From: Oscillospiraceae bacterium
GTDB lineage: Bacteria > Bacillota > Clostridia > Oscillospirales > Oscillospiraceae
Assembly: GCA_024691985.1 (NCBI GenBank)
Contig: JAILNC010000100.1
Coordinates: 1 to 64,000, forward strand
DNA: 64,000 bases
Direction of reading: 5' to 3'
The notes beneath the pieces were generated by a model, which saw only the letters and a program-made list of their open reading frames with translations, was not told where the DNA came from and made no database searches. This document shows positions 32,944-55,711 of the stretch, piece after piece; within the stretch, counting starts at the first letter, position 1; the number at the start of each line of letters is the position of its first letter. Both the position numbers and the translations under genes were made by a program.

Positions 32944-34074
32944 TCATTCATGCGCGTCGGACTGCGCCTGGCGTTTCTCCAGCTTGGAAAGGAAGTAGTC
33001 CTGATAGACAAAGCTCAGGATCGCCGCGGCGGGGATCGAAAGCAGCATGCCCAGGACGCCGAATATCTCTCCAAGCACGATGCCGGCGACCAGGATCAGC
33101 AGGCCGGAGACGCCGAGAGAGCCGGAAAACAGCTTGGGCTTGAGAATGTAGCCGTCCACGAACTGCAGCACGATACAGAAGATGATGAACATCAGCGCAT
33201 GGAGCGGATTGACGAGCAGGAGCACGAACGCGCCGATCACGCCGCCGATGATCGGGCCGAAATTCGGGATCAGATTTGTTACGGCGACGATCACCGAAAT
33301 AAGGCCGATATACTCCATCCCGCACACGAGCATGAAGATCGCATTGACAACGCCGACGATGACGGATTCCAGCAGGCTCTGCTTGAGGTAGCTGATCAGG
33401 ATCGCGTCACAGCGCCGGATGAAGTCCATGATGCCGTCGGCCTTCTCCTTGTGCAGGGTCACGGTCATGAAGCGCCACAAGGCGTTCAGCACACCGGTCT
33501 TGTCAATGAGCAGATAGACCGCGACGATCAGCGCAAGCGCAGTGGTAAGGATCCCTTTGCCGGAGTTTGCCGCCGCGGACAGGATCTTTCCCGCATTTCC
33601 GCGCACGAAAGCGGAGATGGACGTCAAGGCGTTCTGTGACAGCGTCTCGATGTTTTCGGCATTGAGCACAGCTTCCAGCGGGCTGCCCTCCAGCATCCGG
33701 ATCAGAGATACGGCATATTCGTCATAGCTCTCCGAAAAGCGTGAGATGCTCGACACAAGCTGCGGGATCAGTGTCCCGAGCAGAAGGATCACGGCCAGCA
33801 GCGCCGTGAGGATCCCAAGCGTCACGGAGAGATACCAGCGCGTGTTGCCCGCCTTCATCTTGCGCAGTACCTTTTTTTCGTAGAACTTTGCCAACGGATT
33901 GAGAAAATAGGCGAATATGGCGCCCAGGAGAATGGAACTGAAGCTTCTGAGGAAGAAGCCGACAGAAGAAAACACCGTGCTGAGATTCGCCAGAAGCATG
34001 TAAAACGCCACGGCGATACAGGCGATCACCGCGCCGTTAAACCATTTCTTTTCTGACAGCTTGAAATGTTTCAT
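32944..34074 (-). CDS. AI-2E family transporter-like permease
   Basis: Multi-TM; FFLRSFSSILLGAIFAYFLNPL, NLIPNFGPIIGGVIGAF, GSLGVSGLLILVAGIVLGEIFGVLGMLLSIPAAAILSFVYQD. Confidence 0.9.
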   Translation of the reverse strand: MKHFKLSEKKWFNGAVIACIAVAFYMLLANLSTVFSSVGFFLRSFSSILLGAIFAYFLNPLAKFYEKKVLRKMKAGNTRWYLSVTLGILTALLAVILLLGTLIPQLVSSISRFSESYDEYAVSLIRMLEGSPLEAVLNAENIETLSQNALTSISAFVRGNAGKILSAAANSGKGILTTALALIVAVYLLIDKTGVLNALWRFMTVTLHKEKADGIMDFIRRCDAILISYLKQSLLESVIVGVVNAIFMLVCGMEYIGLISVIVAVTNLIPNFGPIIGGVIGAFVLLLVNPLHALMFIIFCIVLQFVDGYILKPKLFSGSLGVSGLLILVAGIVLGEIFGVLGMLLSIPAAAILSFVYQDYFLSKLEKRQAQSDAHE

Positions 34075-35753
34075 GCCATTGCCTCCTGTCCTTCCGGCCG
34101 TACCGGATCCGGTCCGTAATACGCCAGACACAGCATCGTGAGATCGTCAAACTGATCCGCGGTCCCGACGAATCCGTCCACCGCAGCCCGTGCAGTTCTC
34201 AATACCGCCTCGGGGTCCTGTCCGCCCGCGCTGTTCAGAGCCTCCAGGACGCGGTCCGTTCCGAAGAGCCGGCCGTCCTCGTCGTTCGCCTCCGGAAGAC
34301 CGTCGGAATAGACGAACACCATGCTGCCCGGCTCCAGCTTCAGCGCATACTCGCGGTAGGAGATGCCCTCCATGGTCCCCGCCGCCATCCCGTGCGGATC
34401 CTTGACAAGCTCATATCGGCCGCCCGGGCTCTTCAGGATCGGATACTCGTGGCCGGCGTTGACCGCCTGCATCCTGCCGCTGGAGATCTCGAGCACGCCG
34501 AGCCAGACGGTCACGAACATGAGCTCGGAATTGTTGGCGGCGATCTGCTCGTTGAGCTGCTCCATGGCCCGCTTCGGGCCGAGACCCGCCAGTACGCAGT
34601 TGTGCAGCAGCACCATGCACTTCATCATGAAGAGCGCGGCCGGTATCCCCTTGCCCGAGACGTCCGCCATGACCAGACCCAGGTGGTCCTCGTCGATCAG
34701 GAAAAAGTCGTAGAAGTCGCCGCCGACCTCCTTGGCCGGGTCCATCTCGGCATACAGCGCGAATTCCTTCCTGTCGGGGAAGGGCGGGAAGCTGCGCGGG
34801 AGCATGTCCTCCTGGATGCGGGCGGAAAGCGCAAGCTCGGTGCTCAGGCGCTCGCGTTCCGCCGTGATCCTGGTATTCTCGCGCAGATAGTGCTTCAGAT
34901 TCCGGTCCATGTCTTCGACCGAATGGGCCAGCGCTTCCAGCTCGTCGCCGGTGCGCACGTCGGAGACATACTCCTCGTCGCTGTCCAGCTTGCTGACCAG
35001 CTCGTCCGTGTCCTGCTTGAGCGACTGGATCGGGCGGATCATCGTCCGCTCGAGCACCCGGTAATGCAGGATCATCCCGATACAGGTGATGGCGATGATC
35101 GTGATCGCGAGCATCAAATACAGATTCATCTGCGCCTGCCAGATCTCAGCGATCGACACATCGACGCCGACCAGAGCCGGGACCTCGTCGTCCGCGGTAT
35201 GCAGCGGCACAAGAGCTGTGGCGAGCTTTTCGCCGCCGAGCTCACGCACGCCGATATAGAGCTCCTCCGGCGCCTGCAGCTTTTCCCTGTCCAGCGCCTG
35301 CAGCATGATCTCTTTTTCGCCGGAGCGGTAGGGCCGACGCTCGAGAAACTCCGCCTGCGCATCTTGCAGGTCCCCGGATCCCGCGGGCAGATTGTGATAG
35401 ATCTCGCTGATGCAGATCAACTCGTCCTCCGCGGGAACGACCAGATAGATATCCTTGAATTCCCGGTCGTACATGCCTGCGGTCATGAGGCCGCTGCGGA
35501 TGGCGAAATACTCGTCGTCCTCCGTCCCGGTCTCCAGAAACTTTGTCGGCGCGCTGCCGCTGATGTTGTCCGCGATCAGATGGGTATAGGAATAGGTGTT
35601 CTCGGTGTAAAGCTTCAGGTTCCGCTTGTACAGCATCTGACCTGCGATGAAGCTGACCCCCAGGATCAGGAAAAGACCCAGCAGGGCAAGGTGGCTGATG
35701 TTCCGGCCGGCGATCGTGCCCCGCCTGGTTTTGATTTTCTTGTATTCTCTCAT
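34071..35753 (-). CDS. Membrane sensor with HAMP and SpoIIE/PP2C phosphatase domain
   Basis: TM - extracytoplasmic segment - TM - HAMP (RPIQSLKQDTDELVSKLDSDEEYVSDVRTGDELEAL) - LPRSFPPFPDRKEFALYAEMDPAKEVGGDFYDFFLIDEDHLGLVMADVSGKGIPAALFM. Confidence 0.93.
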   Translation of the reverse strand: MREYKKIKTRRGTIAGRNISHLALLGLFLILGVSFIAGQMLYKRNLKLYTENTYSYTHLIADNISGSAPTKFLETGTEDDEYFAIRSGLMTAGMYDREFKDIYLVVPAEDELICISEIYHNLPAGSGDLQDAQAEFLERRPYRSGEKEIMLQALDREKLQAPEELYIGVRELGGEKLATALVPLHTADDEVPALVGVDVSIAEIWQAQMNLYLMLAITIIAITCIGMILHYRVLERTMIRPIQSLKQDTDELVSKLDSDEEYVSDVRTGDELEALAHSVEDMDRNLKHYLRENTRITAERERLSTELALSARIQEDMLPRSFPPFPDRKEFALYAEMDPAKEVGGDFYDFFLIDEDHLGLVMADVSGKGIPAALFMMKCMVLLHNCVLAGLGPKRAMEQLNEQIAANNSELMFVTVWLGVLEISSGRMQAVNAGHEYPILKSPGGRYELVKDPHGMAAGTMEGISYREYALKLEPGSMVFVYSDGLPEANDEDGRLFGTDRVLEALNSAGGQDPEAVLRTARAAVDGFVGTADQFDDLTMLCLAYYGPDPVRPEGQEAMA

Positions 35754-37806: not shown

Positions 37807-39576
37807 TTAAATTCGGATCGTCAGCACGTTCAGACCGAGGATGTTCTGGTACTGCACGTCCCGCGCGCTCTTGAACACCATGCGGATGCCGATGTTTTTC
37901 GCCGGGTCCTCGCCCGCGGCGAGCATTTGCCGCTCGTGCGGGTCAAAGGGGACGCAGTCGTCCTTGATGCGCAGGATGATATCGTCGTTCTTGTGGACGA
38001 CGCGCACATCGACCGAGTGCGGCTTTTTGTCCTTTGTGAAGCCGTGGTCGATGATGTTGCCGGCCATCTCCTCCATGGACAGACCCGCCAGATAGGCGCG
38101 GTGTGCATCGAGACCGCGGGAGAGGCAGAAGGCCTGAACACGCTCGGCGATGCTGACGACGCCCTCCATGTCCCGTACGCTCAGATCCAGCCGCGCATCC
38201 TCCGGAGCGCCGAAGTCGTCATCAATGACCATGAGCTCCTCCATGTTCCGGGGGAAGCGCTTTTTCCGGATCCAGGCATAGCCGATGATGACCAGCGTCG
38301 TGACGACGCCGTTGAGGACGTTGGCGACGTAGGCACTGTTCAAGCCCATGCTGCGGATCAGCAGGGCGGTGAAGCCCGCCACGCACACCACGCCGTCAAG
38401 CAGACTCAGCAGATGAACCAGGACCTGCTTGTTCGAGGCCTGCCCGTAGCAGGTGAAGTGCATGCAGATGATGCTCAGCGGCATGCACAGCGGCAGGATG
38501 CGAAAGCCCCACACGGTCATCATGAACACGGGCTCGGCGGGATCGTGATAGAAGATGCGTGTCAGCGGCACGGCGCAGAGGATGATCCCCGCGGAGATCG
38601 CATACTGCAGCGGGACGAAGCGCCGGAACATGACGCGCATGACGTCTGTAAGCGTCTGCCGATCCTCCTCGCCGATGCTGACGCTGATCAGCATGCGGGA
38701 CACGGCCAGCATGCCGGTCGGTATCGCCCAGAAGATACGCAGCAGATTGTCCGCCGTGGCGAAGGCCGAGATGGCCACGCTCCCGACGAATATGTCCAGC
38801 ATGCGGTTGACAAGCAGGCCGCGGACGGTCTGATAGACGTTGCTGAGCGCGCCCGGCACGCCGATGCGGAAGATCTCGCCGCTGTCATGCCAGGACAGAT
38901 GGCGGAGACTGAAACGGATGTGCGATTTCCCGGAAGCATAATACTCCGCCTGGACGAGCAGAAAAACCCACATGCCAAGCGACGAGGCCAGCGCGAGGCC
39001 CAGGGCTTCCATATGCAGAAGCTCGACGAACAGATAATTCAGGATCAGATTGACGACGATATAGACCACGCTTGCGATCATGGTCCGCCTTGTCTTGTTC
39101 TCGAGAGAGAGGAACGCAGCAAGGGAGTTGCCGAGCAGCAGGGGGAGCACGCCGAGGGACTGACCGATCAGATAGCGGTTCATCAGCGGGCGCACAGCCT
39201 CGTCTTTGGTCAGAAAGCCAGTCAGATTGAAAAGCCCCATCCCCAGGAAGAGGGCGGCAAAGACGAGACCCGTCAGCGCCGAGACGAGCAGGTTCAGGGA
39301 AAAGACGTTCCGCACCCCATCCTGATCGTTCTCGCCGATATACTTCCCGCACAGGATCACGGAGCCGCCGACCAGAATGAGGCTGAGGGCTGTGATCAGC
39401 ATGTTGAGCGGGCTGTACAGTCCGACCGCGCTCATGGCGTCGACGCCGACGAAGTTGCTGGCGAAGAAGCTGGAAACGATGCCGTTCACCGCGCCGACCG
39501 CGGCCAGAAGGACCTGGATCGGCAGCAGGCGAAACAGCAGCCGGCTGACCATTTTGCAATTGGCGGTCTGATTCAT
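37807..39576 (-). CDS. MATE-family transporter fused to C-terminal RsbW-like HATPase domain
   Basis: 12-TM-like N-terminus; C-terminal GLSMEEMAGNIIDHGFTKDKKPHSVDVRVVHKNDDIILRIKDDCVPFDPHERQML...NIGIRMV: N-box ExxxNxxxHG and D.C.PFDP motifs of HATPase_c_2. Confidence 0.88.
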   Translation of the reverse strand: MNQTANCKMVSRLLFRLLPIQVLLAAVGAVNGIVSSFFASNFVGVDAMSAVGLYSPLNMLITALSLILVGGSVILCGKYIGENDQDGVRNVFSLNLLVSALTGLVFAALFLGMGLFNLTGFLTKDEAVRPLMNRYLIGQSLGVLPLLLGNSLAAFLSLENKTRRTMIASVVYIVVNLILNYLFVELLHMEALGLALASSLGMWVFLLVQAEYYASGKSHIRFSLRHLSWHDSGEIFRIGVPGALSNVYQTVRGLLVNRMLDIFVGSVAISAFATADNLLRIFWAIPTGMLAVSRMLISVSIGEEDRQTLTDVMRVMFRRFVPLQYAISAGIILCAVPLTRIFYHDPAEPVFMMTVWGFRILPLCMPLSIICMHFTCYGQASNKQVLVHLLSLLDGVVCVAGFTALLIRSMGLNSAYVANVLNGVVTTLVIIGYAWIRKKRFPRNMEELMVIDDDFGAPEDARLDLSVRDMEGVVSIAERVQAFCLSRGLDAHRAYLAGLSMEEMAGNIIDHGFTKDKKPHSVDVRVVHKNDDIILRIKDDCVPFDPHERQMLAAGEDPAKNIGIRMVFKSARDVQYQNILGLNVLTIRI

Positions 39577-39611
39577 CTGAATAGCCTCCCGCTTGCGTTT
39601 TTATCCGCAGA

Positions 39612-40823
39612 TCAATAATAAGCCAGGACGGTCAGCAGCGCATAGGCGAGCGTGACGGTCCCGAGGACCAGCGCCTGCGTGCCGCGATGCTCGGTCAGCA
39701 GGCCGACGAACTCGCGTACGGCGGCGTTCGGCCAGAAATACCATCTGGTCGGAGCACCCATGCCGTCGGCCTGCGGCAGTCCGGCCTGGCGGGCCTTCAG
39801 CCCCGCGCGGAACACATGGTAGTTTGTCGTAAAGAACGCGACGCGCGCCTCCGGCGCCTGCTTTCCGATCAGCTCCCCGGAAAAACGCATGTTCTCCTCC
39901 GTGTCGGTGGAGCGGTCCTCCGTCAGGATACGGTCCGCCGGGACGCCCCGGGAGAGCAGATAGTCACGCATGGAGGACGCCTCCGACCGGGACTCGTCCG
40001 GGCCCTGCCCGCCGGAGACGATAAAGCTTGCGTCCCTGCCGTCGGTCTCACGCTGCTCCCGATCGAAGCGCAGGGCGAGGTCCAGACGCCCGCACAGCAG
40101 GGGAGTGGGCGCGCCGTCCTTCTTCAGCCCGCAGCCGAGGACGATCAGATAATCCTTGTCGTGTGCGGCGACCCGCTTGGCGGCGATCCAGTCGGCGGCG
40201 ACGGCGCCGACGATCATGCACTCGAAGTAGAGATAGAAGGCTGCCGTCAGATTGGCCGTGAGGTTGACGAGCAGGATCTCCCGCCGGGAATAGGCGCCGC
40301 GGAAATCCAGATACGCGATGAGGATCTCCCCCGCGATCAGGGCGAGCGCCAGGAGGATCCCCAGAAGATTGACAAAACGCCGCCCCTCATGCCGGATCAG
40401 AGCCAGATTGGAGACCATCAGCGCCGCTGAAAAGCAGAAGAGCAGGGGAGAGGTCAGAAACATATAGTTCTTGGCCGAGTGCACCAGAGAATAGAGCATC
40501 TGCGCGACGCGGTAATCCTCCGGCGCCAGAAAGGCCTGCGCCGCGGCGACGAGGTGCGTGACGGAGATCGAAAGGAGAAACAGGGAAAAACCCGCATAGA
40601 AGATCGTGTTGTAGGAATAGAGATCGCAGCGGAGCTGGCGGAAAAAGGCGGCGGCCAGGAAGGCCGCGGCGGACCCGAAGTACAGCGCGAGGATCAGGTT
40701 CCCCCAGGAGAGCATCGCACGGTAGCCCATCCAGACCAGTCCCGCCAGCGCAAGCAGCGCCGCGGCGGTCAGCAGGGAGAGGGAGAGCGCGATCGGTTTT
40801 GCTTTTATCGTCTTGCCGTTCAA
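39612..40823 (-). CDS. YdcF/SanA/ElyC-like (DUF218) protein with N-terminal multi-TM region
   Basis: YLIVLGCGLKKDGAPTPLLCGRLDLALRF...FIVSGGQGPDESRSEASSMRDYLLSRGVPADRILTEDRSTDTEENMRFS...FFTTNYHVFRA; TTG start. Confidence 0.9.
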   Translation of the reverse strand: MNGKTIKAKPIALSLSLLTAAALLALAGLVWMGYRAMLSWGNLILALYFGSAAAFLAAAFFRQLRCDLYSYNTIFYAGFSLFLLSISVTHLVAAAQAFLAPEDYRVAQMLYSLVHSAKNYMFLTSPLLFCFSAALMVSNLALIRHEGRRFVNLLGILLALALIAGEILIAYLDFRGAYSRREILLVNLTANLTAAFYLYFECMIVGAVAADWIAAKRVAAHDKDYLIVLGCGLKKDGAPTPLLCGRLDLALRFDREQRETDGRDASFIVSGGQGPDESRSEASSMRDYLLSRGVPADRILTEDRSTDTEENMRFSGELIGKQAPEARVAFFTTNYHVFRAGLKARQAGLPQADGMGAPTRWYFWPNAAVREFVGLLTEHRGTQALVLGTVTLAYALLTVLAYY

Positions 40824-41213: not shown

Positions 41214-43502
41214 TTATTCGTTTTCCTGCTTGTTCTCCGCCGGCTCACTTTTTGCCGGCTCATTACCCGCCGGCTCGCTTTCGGTCGGCTCGCTCTCGGC
41301 CACCTCGTTTGCAGCCGGCTCGGTGTCCAGCCTCTGCCTTGCGACGAGCTCGGCAAAGAAACCGTTGTTCGCGATCAGCTCGTCATAGGTGCCGTCCTCC
41401 ATGATATGCCCCTTGTCGAGCACGAGGATGCGGTCACAGTTGCGGATGGTGCTCAGACGGTGCGCGATCACGATGCGCGTGCACTTGAGACCGTCGAGCG
41501 CGTCGGATACCTGCTTCTGCGTCTTGTTGTCAAGCGCGGAGGTGGCCTCGTCAAAAATCAGGATGCGGGGCTTCGGCGCGACCGCGCGGGCGATCATGAG
41601 ACGCTGCTTCTGTCCGCCGGAGATGCCGCCCTGCCCCTCGGACAGGATGGTCTGCATCCCCATCGGCATGGCGCGGATATCGTCGGCAATGCCGGCCAGT
41701 TCCGCCGCCTCCCACGCGTCGTCCAGCGAGAGCTGCGGCGCGGAGATGACGATGTTGGAGTAGATGTCGCCCTGGAAGAGGCTGCCGTCCTGCATCACGA
41801 CGCCGATTTTGCGGCGCAGCGAGCGCAGGTCGAGCTTGGACAGATCGTAGCCGTCGAAGTAGATCGCGCCCTTTTCCGGCGTCTCAAAGCCGAGCAGGAG
41901 GCGTACCAGCGTGGATTTGCCGCAGCCGGTCGTGCCGACGATGGCGACGTACTCGCCGGGCTTGATGCGCAGGCTCATCCCGTCGACCACATAGGGCATG
42001 CTCTCGGTGTAGCGGAAATAGACGTTGGACAGCTCGATGCCGCCCTTGATCGAGGAGACCATGACCTTGTTCTCGGAGGATTCGGGCGCGGTCTTCAAGA
42101 TGGGCTCCGCCATATCGAGAATGGGCTTGATCTGCGCGACGGAGAGGGCCACGCCGGTGAGCGAGGCGAAGGAGGCCATCACAACGCCGTAGGCCGTGTT
42201 GAACGCGATGTACTCGGAGGGAGAGACGTTCGTGCTCACGGCGAGATAGTAGATCAGCAGGTTGCCGGCGAGCGTGATCGCGATGGAGATGGCGGTGTTC
42301 GCCTTGATGAACATCGGCGGGTTGTAGGTCAGCGACGCCGCCTGGGAATATGCGCCGGCCCAGCGGGCGAAGGCGCGCTTTTCGGCGCCGGCGAGCTTGA
42401 TCTTCTGCACGCCGGAGATGAGCGCGAAGCTCAGGCCGTTTTCCTTGGCGCCCTTCTCCATGACCTGCTTGCTGATCTTGATCTGCATCAGGGAGGAGCA
42501 GATGCTGAACGCAAGCGTGACCACGATAATGAGCAGGGCCGGCAGCACCAGCGCGGGCGCATAGCGGAAGATCTGCGTGATGTACAGCAGCGAGGCCAGC
42601 GAGCTCAGCCCCGTGGAAAAGACGTTGCCGAGCAGCAGCGAGCAGAGCTGATTGACCGCTCCGGCGCGGCTGGAGAGCTCGCCGGAGGAATAGCTGCGGA
42701 AGAATCTGGCCGGGAGATTCAGCACGCGCATCATGATCGCGGCCTCCACGGAAAGGGAGGTCTTGATCTCGAGGCGGTTCATCATCATCTCCCGCACCGT
42801 GGTGATCAGCTGCGTGGAGATGATGACCGAGAGCATGAACACAGCTGTGCCGATGAGCAGCATCGTGCTGCCGCTCTCGACGACATAGCCGGTCAGCAGG
42901 CGGTTGATGTTCGTCATGATCATGCCCACGCACGTGGCGAGGAGGGTGAGGATGATCAGCGCGGCAAAGTCCCCGGTGCTCAGACATTCGATGAGATAAA
43001 CGATCAGATCCTTGATGCCCAGCTTTTTCAGCGGCAGCGGACGGTAGAAGCAGACAGCGTCCGGGGCGAACTGCTGCGCATTCTTTTTGTTCAGCGTCGT
43101 CTTTTTCCCCGTGACCGGGTCGCGGAAGCTGTAGCCGATGAAGGACTTCGGCAGCAGGGCGACCGGGACGCCATCCTCCTTGCGGAAGGCGAGCATCGGC
43201 CCATAGGCGTCCTTGTACCAGCCCTCCTCCAGTATCACGTTGCGCCGCATGATGCCGTGCGGACGCAGACTGTATTCCAGCTGCTCGTCGCCGTCGCGGA
43301 TCTCGGCAGGGATCTCGGGGCTTTTGAAATGGTAGTATTTCAGGATCTCGTCGATGGCGTCCTTGGTGATGATGCGATTGTCGTTGAGGAGACCGGCCTC
43401 CTGCTTGCCCAGAACGATCGAAGCCATGCGGTAAATGGAGTCTTCAAAGACCTCCTGGTCGCTTTCCTTGCGCTGGCGAATTTGTTCGTCAAACCAACCC
43501 AT
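41214..43502 (-). CDS. NHLP/NHLM-type bacteriocin-system ABC transporter, permease/ATPase without peptidase domain
   Basis: N-terminal accessory region, ABC TM domain, GTTGCGKSTLVRLLLGFE Walker A, ISGGQKQRLMIARAV, ILIFDEATSALD. Confidence 0.9.
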   Translation of the reverse strand: MGWFDEQIRQRKESDQEVFEDSIYRMASIVLGKQEAGLLNDNRIITKDAIDEILKYYHFKSPEIPAEIRDGDEQLEYSLRPHGIMRRNVILEEGWYKDAYGPMLAFRKEDGVPVALLPKSFIGYSFRDPVTGKKTTLNKKNAQQFAPDAVCFYRPLPLKKLGIKDLIVYLIECLSTGDFAALIILTLLATCVGMIMTNINRLLTGYVVESGSTMLLIGTAVFMLSVIISTQLITTVREMMMNRLEIKTSLSVEAAIMMRVLNLPARFFRSYSSGELSSRAGAVNQLCSLLLGNVFSTGLSSLASLLYITQIFRYAPALVLPALLIIVVTLAFSICSSLMQIKISKQVMEKGAKENGLSFALISGVQKIKLAGAEKRAFARWAGAYSQAASLTYNPPMFIKANTAISIAITLAGNLLIYYLAVSTNVSPSEYIAFNTAYGVVMASFASLTGVALSVAQIKPILDMAEPILKTAPESSENKVMVSSIKGGIELSNVYFRYTESMPYVVDGMSLRIKPGEYVAIVGTTGCGKSTLVRLLLGFETPEKGAIYFDGYDLSKLDLRSLRRKIGVVMQDGSLFQGDIYSNIVISAPQLSLDDAWEAAELAGIADDIRAMPMGMQTILSEGQGGISGGQKQRLMIARAVAPKPRILIFDEATSALDNKTQKQVSDALDGLKCTRIVIAHRLSTIRNCDRILVLDKGHIMEDGTYDELIANNGFFAELVARQRLDTEPAANEVAESEPTESEPAGNEPAKSEPAENKQENE

Positions 43503-43516
43503 ATGTCCGCACCTCC

Positions 43517-45697
43517 TCAGTCGCTCGCGATGAGCTCGGTATAATAGCCGCCCTTGGCGTAGAGCTCATCATGTGTGCCGCGTTCGACCACGACGCCCTT
43601 GTCGAGGACGATGATCTCGTCGCAGTCGCGGATGGTGGAGAGCCGATGCGCGATCACGATGCAGGTGATGCCGCGGTCCTTGACCGCCTTGACCAGCTCG
43701 TATTCCGTTTTGGCGTCCAGCGCGGAGGTCGCCTCGTCCATGATGATGACGGAGGGATCCTGCGCGAGCACGCGGGCGATCTCGAGACGCTGGCGCTGTC
43801 CGCCGGAGAGATCCTTGCCGCCCTCGGAGAGCTTCCCGCCGAAGCCGCCCTCGCGCGCCATGATGTCGTCGTAGATCTGGGCGTCCCGCGCGGCGAGGAT
43901 CATTTCAAAGTCCTCGATGGAATCATCCCACATCTTGATGTTGTTGGCGATGGTATCCTCGAAAAGCGTGATGTCCTGATCCACGACGGCGACTGAGCCG
44001 GTGAAGACGCTGCGGTCGATCTCCGAGATGGACTTTCCGTCAAAGAGGACCTCGCCGCTCCACGGCAGATAGAGACCGGAGATCAGCTTGGAGAGCGTGG
44101 ACTTGCCGCAGCCGGAGGTCCCGACGAAGGCGACGCGGCTGCCGGGCTCCATGTGCATGGAGAAATCCTGGATCAGAGGATCGGCAAGACGGGAGTAACC
44201 GAAAGTCACGTTGTTGAGGTCGATCCGGCCGGAGAGCTTGGAGTAATCCGCGTCCTCCTCCAGCGGGCTGTCCTTGAAATGGGGGTCGGTCGGATACTGC
44301 ATGACGTCCTCTACGCGCTCCATGTCGGTGCGCATCTCCTGGATCGTCTGTCCCGCGGAAATAAGCATCGACGCGGGGGACATGAAGGAGCTCAGAAAGC
44401 CCTGGAAGATCACGATCGAGCCCAGCGTGAACTTGCCCCGCATCGTCAGCCAGACGCCCAGCACCATCACGGCGGAGTTGGCGATGGTGGAAAGCACGGG
44501 CGGGATCGAGCCGAGATACTGGTTGAGACGGAAGTAGCGCACGTTCTGCGCGTTCACGGAGGCCTGATAGCCCGCCCACTTCTGGAAGTAGCCGTTCTCC
44601 GCGCCGCTGGACTTGATGGTCTCGACCATCTGGATGCCGGAGACCTGGGCGGCGGCAAGCTTGCCCTCGTCGCGCATCTGCACGCGGGTGATGTTGACGC
44701 GTTTGGCGGAGATCAGTCTGGATACCAGCAGGTTCAGCACGACCGTCACGACGCCGACGAGCGTCAGCAGAACGCTGTAACGCAGCATGATGAAAAGATA
44801 GAAGAACATCATGATGGTGTTGAGCAGGAGAGGCGTCAGGGTGTTGACCAGCACGCTCGCGATCGAGGCATTGGTGGACTGACGCAGCAGGATGTCGCCC
44901 GCCATGCGCTGCGAGAAGAACTCCATCGGCATCTGCAGAATCTTCCACATGTAGCTGCTGCTGCCGACGATGGCCATCTTGCCGTTGATCTTCAGCGCGT
45001 ACACGGCCTGTATCCATGCCGTGACGATCTGAATGATCCCCAGCAGGGCGAGCAGTCCGATAAAGGGCAGCAGAAGCTCCCGGTTCTCGCCCGTCAGCAG
45101 ACGGTCCATGAAGAAGCCGGTGAAGACGGGATTGATGATGCCGAAGAGATAGCTGATCACGGTCGTGACCAGCACGAAGGCCACCGCGGCCCCGGCGCCG
45201 ACAAGCCGTTTGCGCGCAAATTCCAGCGTGCTCTTCGGCTTCCCGCCGGGGACAAAGTTTTCTCCCGGAACGATGGACAGACAGATGCCGGTGAAGGAAC
45301 GGTCAAATTCCTCCATCGTGACCTTGACCTCGCCGCGCGCCGGGTCGTTGAGATAGGCGTACTTGCCCTTGAAGCCGTCGAGAACGACAAAGTGATTGAA
45401 ATTCCAGTGAATGATGCAGGGGAAGGAGATCTTCTCACGCAGGGCGTCGATCTCGCAGCGAAAGCCCTGCGCCTCAAAGCCGTAGCTGCGCGCCGCGACG
45501 AGCACGTTGCGGGCGTTGGAGCCGTCTCTGGATACGCCGCAGTCGAGACGCACCTGCTCGAGCGGCACCCACTTCCCGTAATAGGCCATGACCATGGCCA
45601 GAGAGGCCGCCCCGCATTCGAGCGCCTCCATCTGCATGACGACCGGGACCTTGGCTACGCCATGGCTGACCGGCTGTTTAATCTTCTTTTGACCCAT
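43517..45697 (-). CDS. NHLP-type peptidase-containing ABC exporter (C39 peptidase/permease/ATPase)
   Basis: C39: MQMEALECGAASLAMVMAYYGKWVPLEQVRLDCGVSRDGSNA...INWNHFVVLDGF-type IIHWNFNHFVVLDGFKGKYAYLNDPARG (Cys, His, Asp all present); GTSGCGKSTLSKLISGLY; LSGGQRQRLEIARVLAQDPSVIIMDEATSALD. Confidence 0.94.
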   Translation of the reverse strand: MGQKKIKQPVSHGVAKVPVVMQMEALECGAASLAMVMAYYGKWVPLEQVRLDCGVSRDGSNARNVLVAARSYGFEAQGFRCEIDALREKISFPCIIHWNFNHFVVLDGFKGKYAYLNDPARGEVKVTMEEFDRSFTGICLSIVPGENFVPGGKPKSTLEFARKRLVGAGAAVAFVLVTTVISYLFGIINPVFTGFFMDRLLTGENRELLLPFIGLLALLGIIQIVTAWIQAVYALKINGKMAIVGSSSYMWKILQMPMEFFSQRMAGDILLRQSTNASIASVLVNTLTPLLLNTIMMFFYLFIMLRYSVLLTLVGVVTVVLNLLVSRLISAKRVNITRVQMRDEGKLAAAQVSGIQMVETIKSSGAENGYFQKWAGYQASVNAQNVRYFRLNQYLGSIPPVLSTIANSAVMVLGVWLTMRGKFTLGSIVIFQGFLSSFMSPASMLISAGQTIQEMRTDMERVEDVMQYPTDPHFKDSPLEEDADYSKLSGRIDLNNVTFGYSRLADPLIQDFSMHMEPGSRVAFVGTSGCGKSTLSKLISGLYLPWSGEVLFDGKSISEIDRSVFTGSVAVVDQDITLFEDTIANNIKMWDDSIEDFEMILAARDAQIYDDIMAREGGFGGKLSEGGKDLSGGQRQRLEIARVLAQDPSVIIMDEATSALDAKTEYELVKAVKDRGITCIVIAHRLSTIRDCDEIIVLDKGVVVERGTHDELYAKGGYYTELIASD

Positions 45698-55411: not shown

Positions 55412-55711
55412 TTATTCGATCGTCAGAATATCGCTGAAGCCGGTGACCTCAAAGATCTCCTGGATCGTGTCGTTGACGTTGATCAGCTTCATGGAGCCCT
55501 GCTTGTTCATGATCTTCTGAGCGGAGAGCAGAACACGCAGACCGGCGGAAGAGATATACTCCAGCTTGGCAAAGTCGAGCACGACCTCCTTCATGCCGTT
55601 GAGACTCTCCTTCAGCTCTGCCTCCAGCTTGGGGGCGGTCGTCGTGTCCAGACGTCCCTCGAGAGCGACAGTCAGGGTCGTGGCTTCGGCCGTTTTGTTG
55701 ATGTTCAGCAT
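55412..55711 (-). CDS. STAS-domain anti-sigma factor antagonist
   Basis: LEGRLDTTTAPKLEAELKESLNGMKEVVLDFAKLEYISSAGLRVLLSAQKIMNKQG: SSAGLR phosphorylation motif. Confidence 0.94.
   Translation of the reverse strand: MLNINKTAEATTLTVALEGRLDTTTAPKLEAELKESLNGMKEVVLDFAKLEYISSAGLRVLLSAQKIMNKQGSMKLINVNDTIQEIFEVTGFSDILTIE

Follow-up and report, generated by a model that had tools for sequence, protein, structure and literature searches.

Domains of the SpoIIAB/RsbW type are ATP-binding switches that usually act in the control of sporulation and stress genes, and partner switching is known mainly from the control of sigma factors, with a few enzyme outputs. What role such a domain might have at the end of a membrane transporter is the question raised by a gene in a 64,000 nucleotide stretch (the window) of contig JAILNC010000100.1 from an Oscillospiraceae bacterium (assembly GCA_024691985.1). 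A sequence-only reading of the window had described the gene product as a complete MATE-like transporter with a C-terminal RsbW-like ATPase, and had pointed out that, together with a SpoIIE phosphatase and a STAS antagonist encoded in the same window, it supplies all three parts of a partner switch, with the kinase embedded in the transporter. In the open-access literature we found no description of a MATE-HATPase fusion or of a transporter with a kinase side. Here we report on the fold, the spread, the gene neighbourhoods and the motif conservation of this fusion, which lead us to favour, with moderate confidence, the view that it serves a STAS/SpoIIE partner-switch module as its membrane arm, with the transporter and not a sigma factor as the output.

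Domain structure of the fusion protein

The gene is a single open reading frame of 589 codons with an ATG start on the minus strand (Table 1). Pfam recognised MatE, split over two stretches (E=7.7e-23), and HATPase_c_2 (PF13581) at residues 473-588 (E=1.6e-8), the latter with 35.1 bits and hence above the curated Pfam cut-off of 27.4 bits. The AlphaFold model of the whole fusion, for which 70 homologues were used as input, shows 12 long helices followed by a linker and an alpha/beta domain. The family profile aligns to DinF-BH across residues 9-438, and the best Foldseek match of the membrane part was PfMATE (6fhz; TM-score 0.84 by target). The window protein resembles DinF-BH and PfMATE over its membrane part but differs from them in the added HATPase domain and in having Ser35 in place of the aspartate of the first transmembrane helix (TM1). 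This aspartate is present in DinF-BH and in 23/23 plain control MATEs compared to 19/98 fusions with intact HATPase motifs (p=1.3e-13, relatedness uncontrolled); it is lost in the window's clade, and Ser or Thr occupies the position in 78 of the 98. Since the aspartate is replaced, canonical cation coupling via that residue is not expected, and the protein may still transport or may act as a facilitator, a flippase or a sensor. The MATE domain of the fusions is strongly conserved alongside the HATPase, with many near-invariant columns.

For the isolated HATPase domain (model pLDDT 86.8), 17 of the first 18 Foldseek matches were anti-sigma kinases (SpoIIAB, UsfX and RsbW; best matches 1tid, 1th8, 1l0o, 8ih8 and 6m37) and the remaining one was a response regulator. 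When searched against the PDB the family profile of the domain matched SpoIIAB and RsbW weakly, and the single sequence gave no useful match. The two-part architecture read from the sequence is consequently borne out by Pfam, profile and Foldseek results, and the RsbW-like identity of the C-terminal part by both Pfam and the modelled fold; its boundary, previously given as the last ~140 residues, is corrected to approximately residue 456. Both ATPase motifs named earlier are present, i.e. E503-M-A-G-N507-I-I-D-H-G (N box) and D539-D-C-V-P-F-D-P (G1-like box), with the ATP-site residues E503, N507 and D539 in place. They are not of the standard form throughout: the G1 box reads DxC and not DxG, the glycine being replaced by Cys541, and the first glycine of G2 is Asn (KNIGIR), both being features of the window clade, which retains the second G2 glycine, Gly563.

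Table 1. Positions in the window of the fusion gene, its domains and motifs, and neighbouring genes of interest
Feature	Position	Strand	Basis
MATE-HATPase_c_2 fusion gene	37807..39576	-	ORF, Pfam, AlphaFold model (mean pLDDT 85.9)
Ribosome-binding site GGGAGG of the fusion gene	39585..39590	-	Sequence
12-helix MATE domain, residues 9-438	38263..39552	-	Profile against PDB (DinF-BH, PfMATE closest), Foldseek
Ser35, which replaces the TM1 aspartate (D40 of DinF-BH)	39472..39474	-	Alignment
HATPase_c_2 (SpoIIAB/RsbW-like) domain, residues 456-589	37810..38211	-	Pfam, Foldseek
N box EEMAGNIIDHGF, residues 502-513	38038..38073	-	Alignment motif
G1-like box DDCVPFDP, residues 539-546	37939..37962	-	Alignment motif
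G2-like box G-I-R, residues 563-565	37882..37890	-	Alignment motif
DUF218 membrane protein gene, 35 bp upstream of the fusion	39612..40823	-	Pfam; near the fusion in 10/123 loci
SpoIIE (PPM) phosphatase with N-terminal sensor region; candidate STAS phosphatase	34071..35753	-	Pfam (E=1.2e-45)
STAS protein, 99 aa from ATG, YISSAGLR phosphosite; candidate partner	55412..55711	-	Pfam, identity

Gene surroundings in the window's genome

In the window the fusion follows DUF218, and after it come a GNAT gene on the opposite strand, a small gene and SpoIIE, with SpoIIE 1.9 kb and the STAS gene 15.8 kb from the fusion. The phosphatase had been read as a HAMP-SpoIIE protein; SpoIIE is confirmed, and it matches the SiaA model weakly, while HAMP was detected only below threshold. 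The STAS antagonist is likewise supported by Pfam, and its product shows 69-77% identity to STAS proteins adjoining fusions in other genomes. All three partner-switch parts claimed for the window are therefore real genes, but because of the distance to the STAS gene and the GNAT gene lying between SpoIIE and the fusion they are not organised as a single operon here. Beyond DUF218, upstream of the fusion, an NHLM-type ABC exporter pair, one member having a C39 peptidase, is encoded at 41214-45697 (-); the same ABC cluster is present in 8/123 fusion loci, the basal L158 among them.

In the genome assembly, which measures 2.39 Mb and is 79% complete, HATPase_c_2 has six matches: two SpoIIAB proteins, one STAS-APH-HATPase protein, the window protein, a second MATE-HATPase fusion and one histidine kinase. 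The second fusion, on contig C12, is 26% identical overall to the window protein, and with a third, degenerate copy on C30 the genome has three MATE-HATPase fusions. Both SpoIIAB genes are accompanied by spoIIAA and sigF; the two spoIIAA-spoIIAB-sigF operons, L001 (G000:C53) and L002 (G000:C66), are similar but distinct, each is located 3' of a valS-like gene, and they represent either paralogues or a strain mixture in the bin. The STAS-APH-HATPase_c_2 gene (L003, G000:C104:4660-6267) is a triple fusion in which the antagonist and kinase domains flank an aminoglycoside-phosphotransferase-like kinase, and it adjoins a phosphoribosyltransferase-like gene and a second SpoIIE gene. Given this second set on C104, the pairing of the fusion with the SpoIIE of the window is putative. 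In the nearest relative (L147; 78% identity in the HATPase domain) such a set lies within the fusion's own cluster, where SpoIIE, STAS-APH-HATPase, DUF218, the fusion and a dipeptidase gene make up one 10-kb same-strand cluster.

Distribution and phylogeny of the fusion

Scanning public genomes yielded 327 relatives, of which the best 80 loci were retained; in all 80 (a few are cut at contig ends), MATE and HATPase with the same motifs were found together. These loci are mostly from rumen or gut Bacillota MAGs but include the isolates Butyrivibrio proteoclasticus P6B7, B. hungatei DSM 14810 and [Clostridium] aminophilum DSM 10710. The occurrence of the same fusion in many other genomes, cultured isolates included, rules out chance or an assembly or frameshift artefact as its origin. 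A profile of the fused HATPase matched 22/399 sampled genomes of the phylum and 29/391 sampled genomes of the class (~7%), a few of the matches in each case not being MATE fusions.

The tree built from 107 HATPase domains places every MATE-fused domain, represented by 74 sequences, in one clade (support 99/86) that requires one change, and a one-off fusion is thereby rejected; the sampled unfused domains are mostly from the same neighbourhoods, so the single origin holds within this sample. One fusion of the window clade (L103) is found in the uncultured Treponema MAG RUG239, reflecting horizontal transfer or mis-binning, and at L165:9120-10798 the fusion is split across two overlapping frames of one strand, probably by a frameshift.

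Partner-switch genes in the fusion neighbourhoods

Neighbours were counted at 123 non-redundant fusion loci with flanks of up to ~10 kb, some of them cut at the ends of MAG contigs, and on the basis of our own gene calls. General ABC transporter ATPases aside, the commonest neighbour families were partner-switch proteins, led by SpoIIE (46 loci by clustering and 51 by profile) and including STAS (34 and 35), STAS-APH (24 and 21) and solo RsbW-like HATPases (16 and 15). These genes are on the same strand as the fusion in 45/49, 39/40, 23/24 and 15/16 cases, respectively. Of the 69 loci counted as well flanked (5 kb or more on each side), 44 have a neighbour of one of these four types and 25 have none, compared to 0/20 plain MATE genes (Fisher p=1.2e-7); the controls, most with ~9 kb on each side, are from the window's own family only, whereas the fusions span a wider range. 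STAS and SpoIIE genes are accordingly found beside the fusion far more often than beside plain MATE genes, and the survey of fusion frequency and neighbourhood that had been proposed with the sequence-only reading revealed a conserved family with partner-switch genes often nearby. The phosphosite serine is kept in all neighbouring STAS proteins, i.e. 44/44 single-domain STAS and 21/21 STAS-APH. Sigma-like genes were found at only 3/123 loci, none of them beside the window gene.

The layouts vary in complexity. Minimal ones are L154 (RsbW-like, STAS, fusion, SpoIIE), whose fused domain is degenerate, and L158 (STAS, fusion, SpoIIE), which has no separate kinase. More extended ones are L060 from Butyrivibrio proteoclasticus (STAS-APH-HATPase, fusion, SpoIIE, STAS, PHP), L052 (STAS, lipoprotein-like, SpoIIE-HATPase, STAS-APH, D-Ala-D-Ala dipeptidase, fusion) and L036 (four STAS genes, SpoIIE, RsbW-like, fusion, DUF218).

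Other features of these loci were also recorded. Apart from the APH-type kinase (21 loci), STAS is fused to an NRPS condensation domain at two MATE-HATPase loci (L162:2855-4444 and L166:6287-7888) and to a GH3-type synthetase at a third (L086:10479-12518). An orphan family of ~175-190 aa that has no Pfam match alternates with STAS genes in L036:2496-4798 and L037, with further members in L051, L072, L218, L220 and L237; its 177-aa proteins in L036 and L037 looked at first like degenerate HATPases, but Pfam recognised nothing in them and profile comparison gave divergent hhalign probabilities of 60% and 4%. At L228, L232, L234, L236 and L238 the fusion is located directly 3' of large NRPS-type genes, without SpoIIE or STAS nearby.

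Loss of a catalytic residue in fused domains

HATPase domains collected from the fusion loci (126 MATE-fused and 42 unfused) were surveyed for their motifs. The N-box Asn and the G1 Asp are kept in all 42 domains not fused to MATE, one of which has Asp for the N-box Glu. Among the MATE-fused domains the motifs are kept in 107/126 and the N-box Asn is lost in 19/126, with at least 4-6 changes of its state on the trees. The window protein belongs to the intact group, and its clade keeps the ATP-site motifs almost perfectly. Degenerate motifs in relatives had been named earlier as a result that would speak against a kinase, and the outcome is divided between an intact window clade and other fusion lineages that are degenerate. 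The pattern suggests that the fused domain may have outlived its catalysis in several lineages, and loss among MATE-fused domains only is what would be expected if STAS docking, and not catalysis, were their shared function. A link between degenerate fusions and a nearby solo kinase (raw counts 10/19 against 3/26, Fisher p=0.006) was rejected, as it fails a control for relatedness and is also absent once all HATPases are counted.

Discussion

In the reading that we favour, the switch in the window's lineage probably controls or reads the transporter instead of genes. A signal would reach a SpoIIE phosphatase through a sensor region of the phosphatase itself and lead it to dephosphorylate the STAS protein, which in its unphosphorylated form would bind the SpoIIAB/RsbW-type domain on the transporter; this putative binding, and the subsequent release, may shift the state of the tethered MATE domain and in this way alter transport. 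In the window clade the HATPase probably phosphorylates STAS on the conserved serine with ATP and so resets the switch, and in lineages with a dead fused domain a separate RsbW-like kinase would phosphorylate STAS instead. Phosphorylation and the direction of signalling are, like the binding and the effect on transport, putative. Consistent with this scheme are the anti-sigma-kinase fold, the partner-switch neighbours encoded nearly always on the same strand and missing at the 20 control genes, the invariant STAS serine, the near absence of sigma-like genes, the loss of the N-box Asn among fused domains against 0/42 other HATPases, and minimal layouts such as L154 and L158. Against it count the 25 well-flanked loci without a partner-switch neighbour, the dispersed arrangement of fusion, SpoIIE and STAS in the window, the narrower origin of the controls, and the almost perfect ATP-site motifs of the window clade, which would suit a sensor kinase too. 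Membership of the fusion in the module is thus supported, and the transporter is probably its output rather than a proven sensor.

A sensor role is the essence of the earlier proposal, according to which a substrate that is sensed or transported by the MATE part determines how actively the HATPase phosphorylates a free STAS protein acting elsewhere in the cell. The motifs of the window clade, the layout of L158 without a separate kinase and the Ser or Thr that mostly replaces the TM1 aspartate, as might befit a transporter turned sensor, agree with it, but 19 fusions from other lineages lack the catalytic Asn, another intact HATPase is present in 11/28 loci with an intact fusion, and the loci link the fusion neither to a downstream sigma factor (3/123 have sigma-like genes) nor to a transcription output; we regard this proposal as rather doubtful. 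Of the kinase-in-transporter idea, the domain identity and the STAS/SpoIIE linkage stand, while for the substrate-sensing kinase a role as target fits at least equally well, given that the Asn loss is confined to MATE-fused domains and that many loci have other intact HATPases. The scarcity of sigma-like neighbours also speaks against a membrane-tethered anti-sigma factor, where the HATPase would hold a sigma factor at the membrane until STAS binding frees it, with MATE as the anchor. The fold and sequence family are indeed those of anti-sigma factors, but the MATE domain is conserved beyond the needs of an anchor and SigF of the window's genome is already paired with its own SpoIIAB, which leaves this a very improbable explanation. 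It could also be argued that the HATPase serves the transporter as a regulatory or structural part that binds nucleotides but no STAS partner, or as an ATP-driven aid to transport, and that the linkage reflects co-regulated stress genes; the loss of the ion-coupling TM1 aspartate of plain MATEs and the well-flanked loci without partner-switch neighbours would fit. We consider it quite improbable, as the neighbours are the specific partners of this domain type, on the same strand and absent at plain MATE loci, and no GHKL domain is known to power transport.

The STAS-enzyme fusions at these loci (APH-type kinase, NRPS condensation domain and GH3-type synthetase) bring up a further and unlikely variant, in which STAS and HATPase would be a phosphorylation-controlled plug and socket that joins biosynthetic enzymes to their exporter. 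Here SpoIIE would strip the phosphate such that a STAS-tagged enzyme docks on the HATPase end of the transporter, docking would link the transport of a compound to its synthesis or phosphorylation, and phosphorylation of STAS would undock the enzyme.

Returning to the transporter as output of the switch, known systems offer partial parallels. The Bacillus SpoIIAB/SpoIIAA/SpoIIE and RsbW/RsbV/RsbU switches share with the fusion and its relatives' loci the HATPase_c_2 fold, the N box, the STAS serine and SpoIIE-type phosphatases nearby; in contrast, here the HATPase is joined to a 12-helix transporter, a sigma gene is almost never near, and the window clade has the Cys and Asn substitutions in G1 and G2. 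In SiaA/SiaB/SiaC/SiaD of Pseudomonas aeruginosa, a kinase/phosphatase-controlled phosphoprotein acts on an enzyme and not on a sigma factor (PMC8457831, PMC7647112), a precedent for a non-sigma output to which the weak SiaA match of the window SpoIIE may be added, but that system acts on a diguanylate cyclase and has its kinase as a protein of its own. SLC26/SulP transporters also have a partner-switch-type domain on their cytoplasmic end, but this C-terminal domain is STAS (PMC8256260), whereas the window transporter bears the opposite partner, the HATPase.

If the favoured reading is true, partner switching would extend to the direct post-translational control of membrane transport, by way of a STAS/SpoIIE-linked transporter-kinase fusion that is spread among many gut and rumen Bacillota. 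Natural variants without the catalytic Asn may make it possible to separate docking from catalysis, and the predictions are testable in cultured strains, e.g. Butyrivibrio hungatei and [Clostridium] aminophilum. The fusion would, moreover, open a way into a large group of MATE proteins that are so far unstudied.
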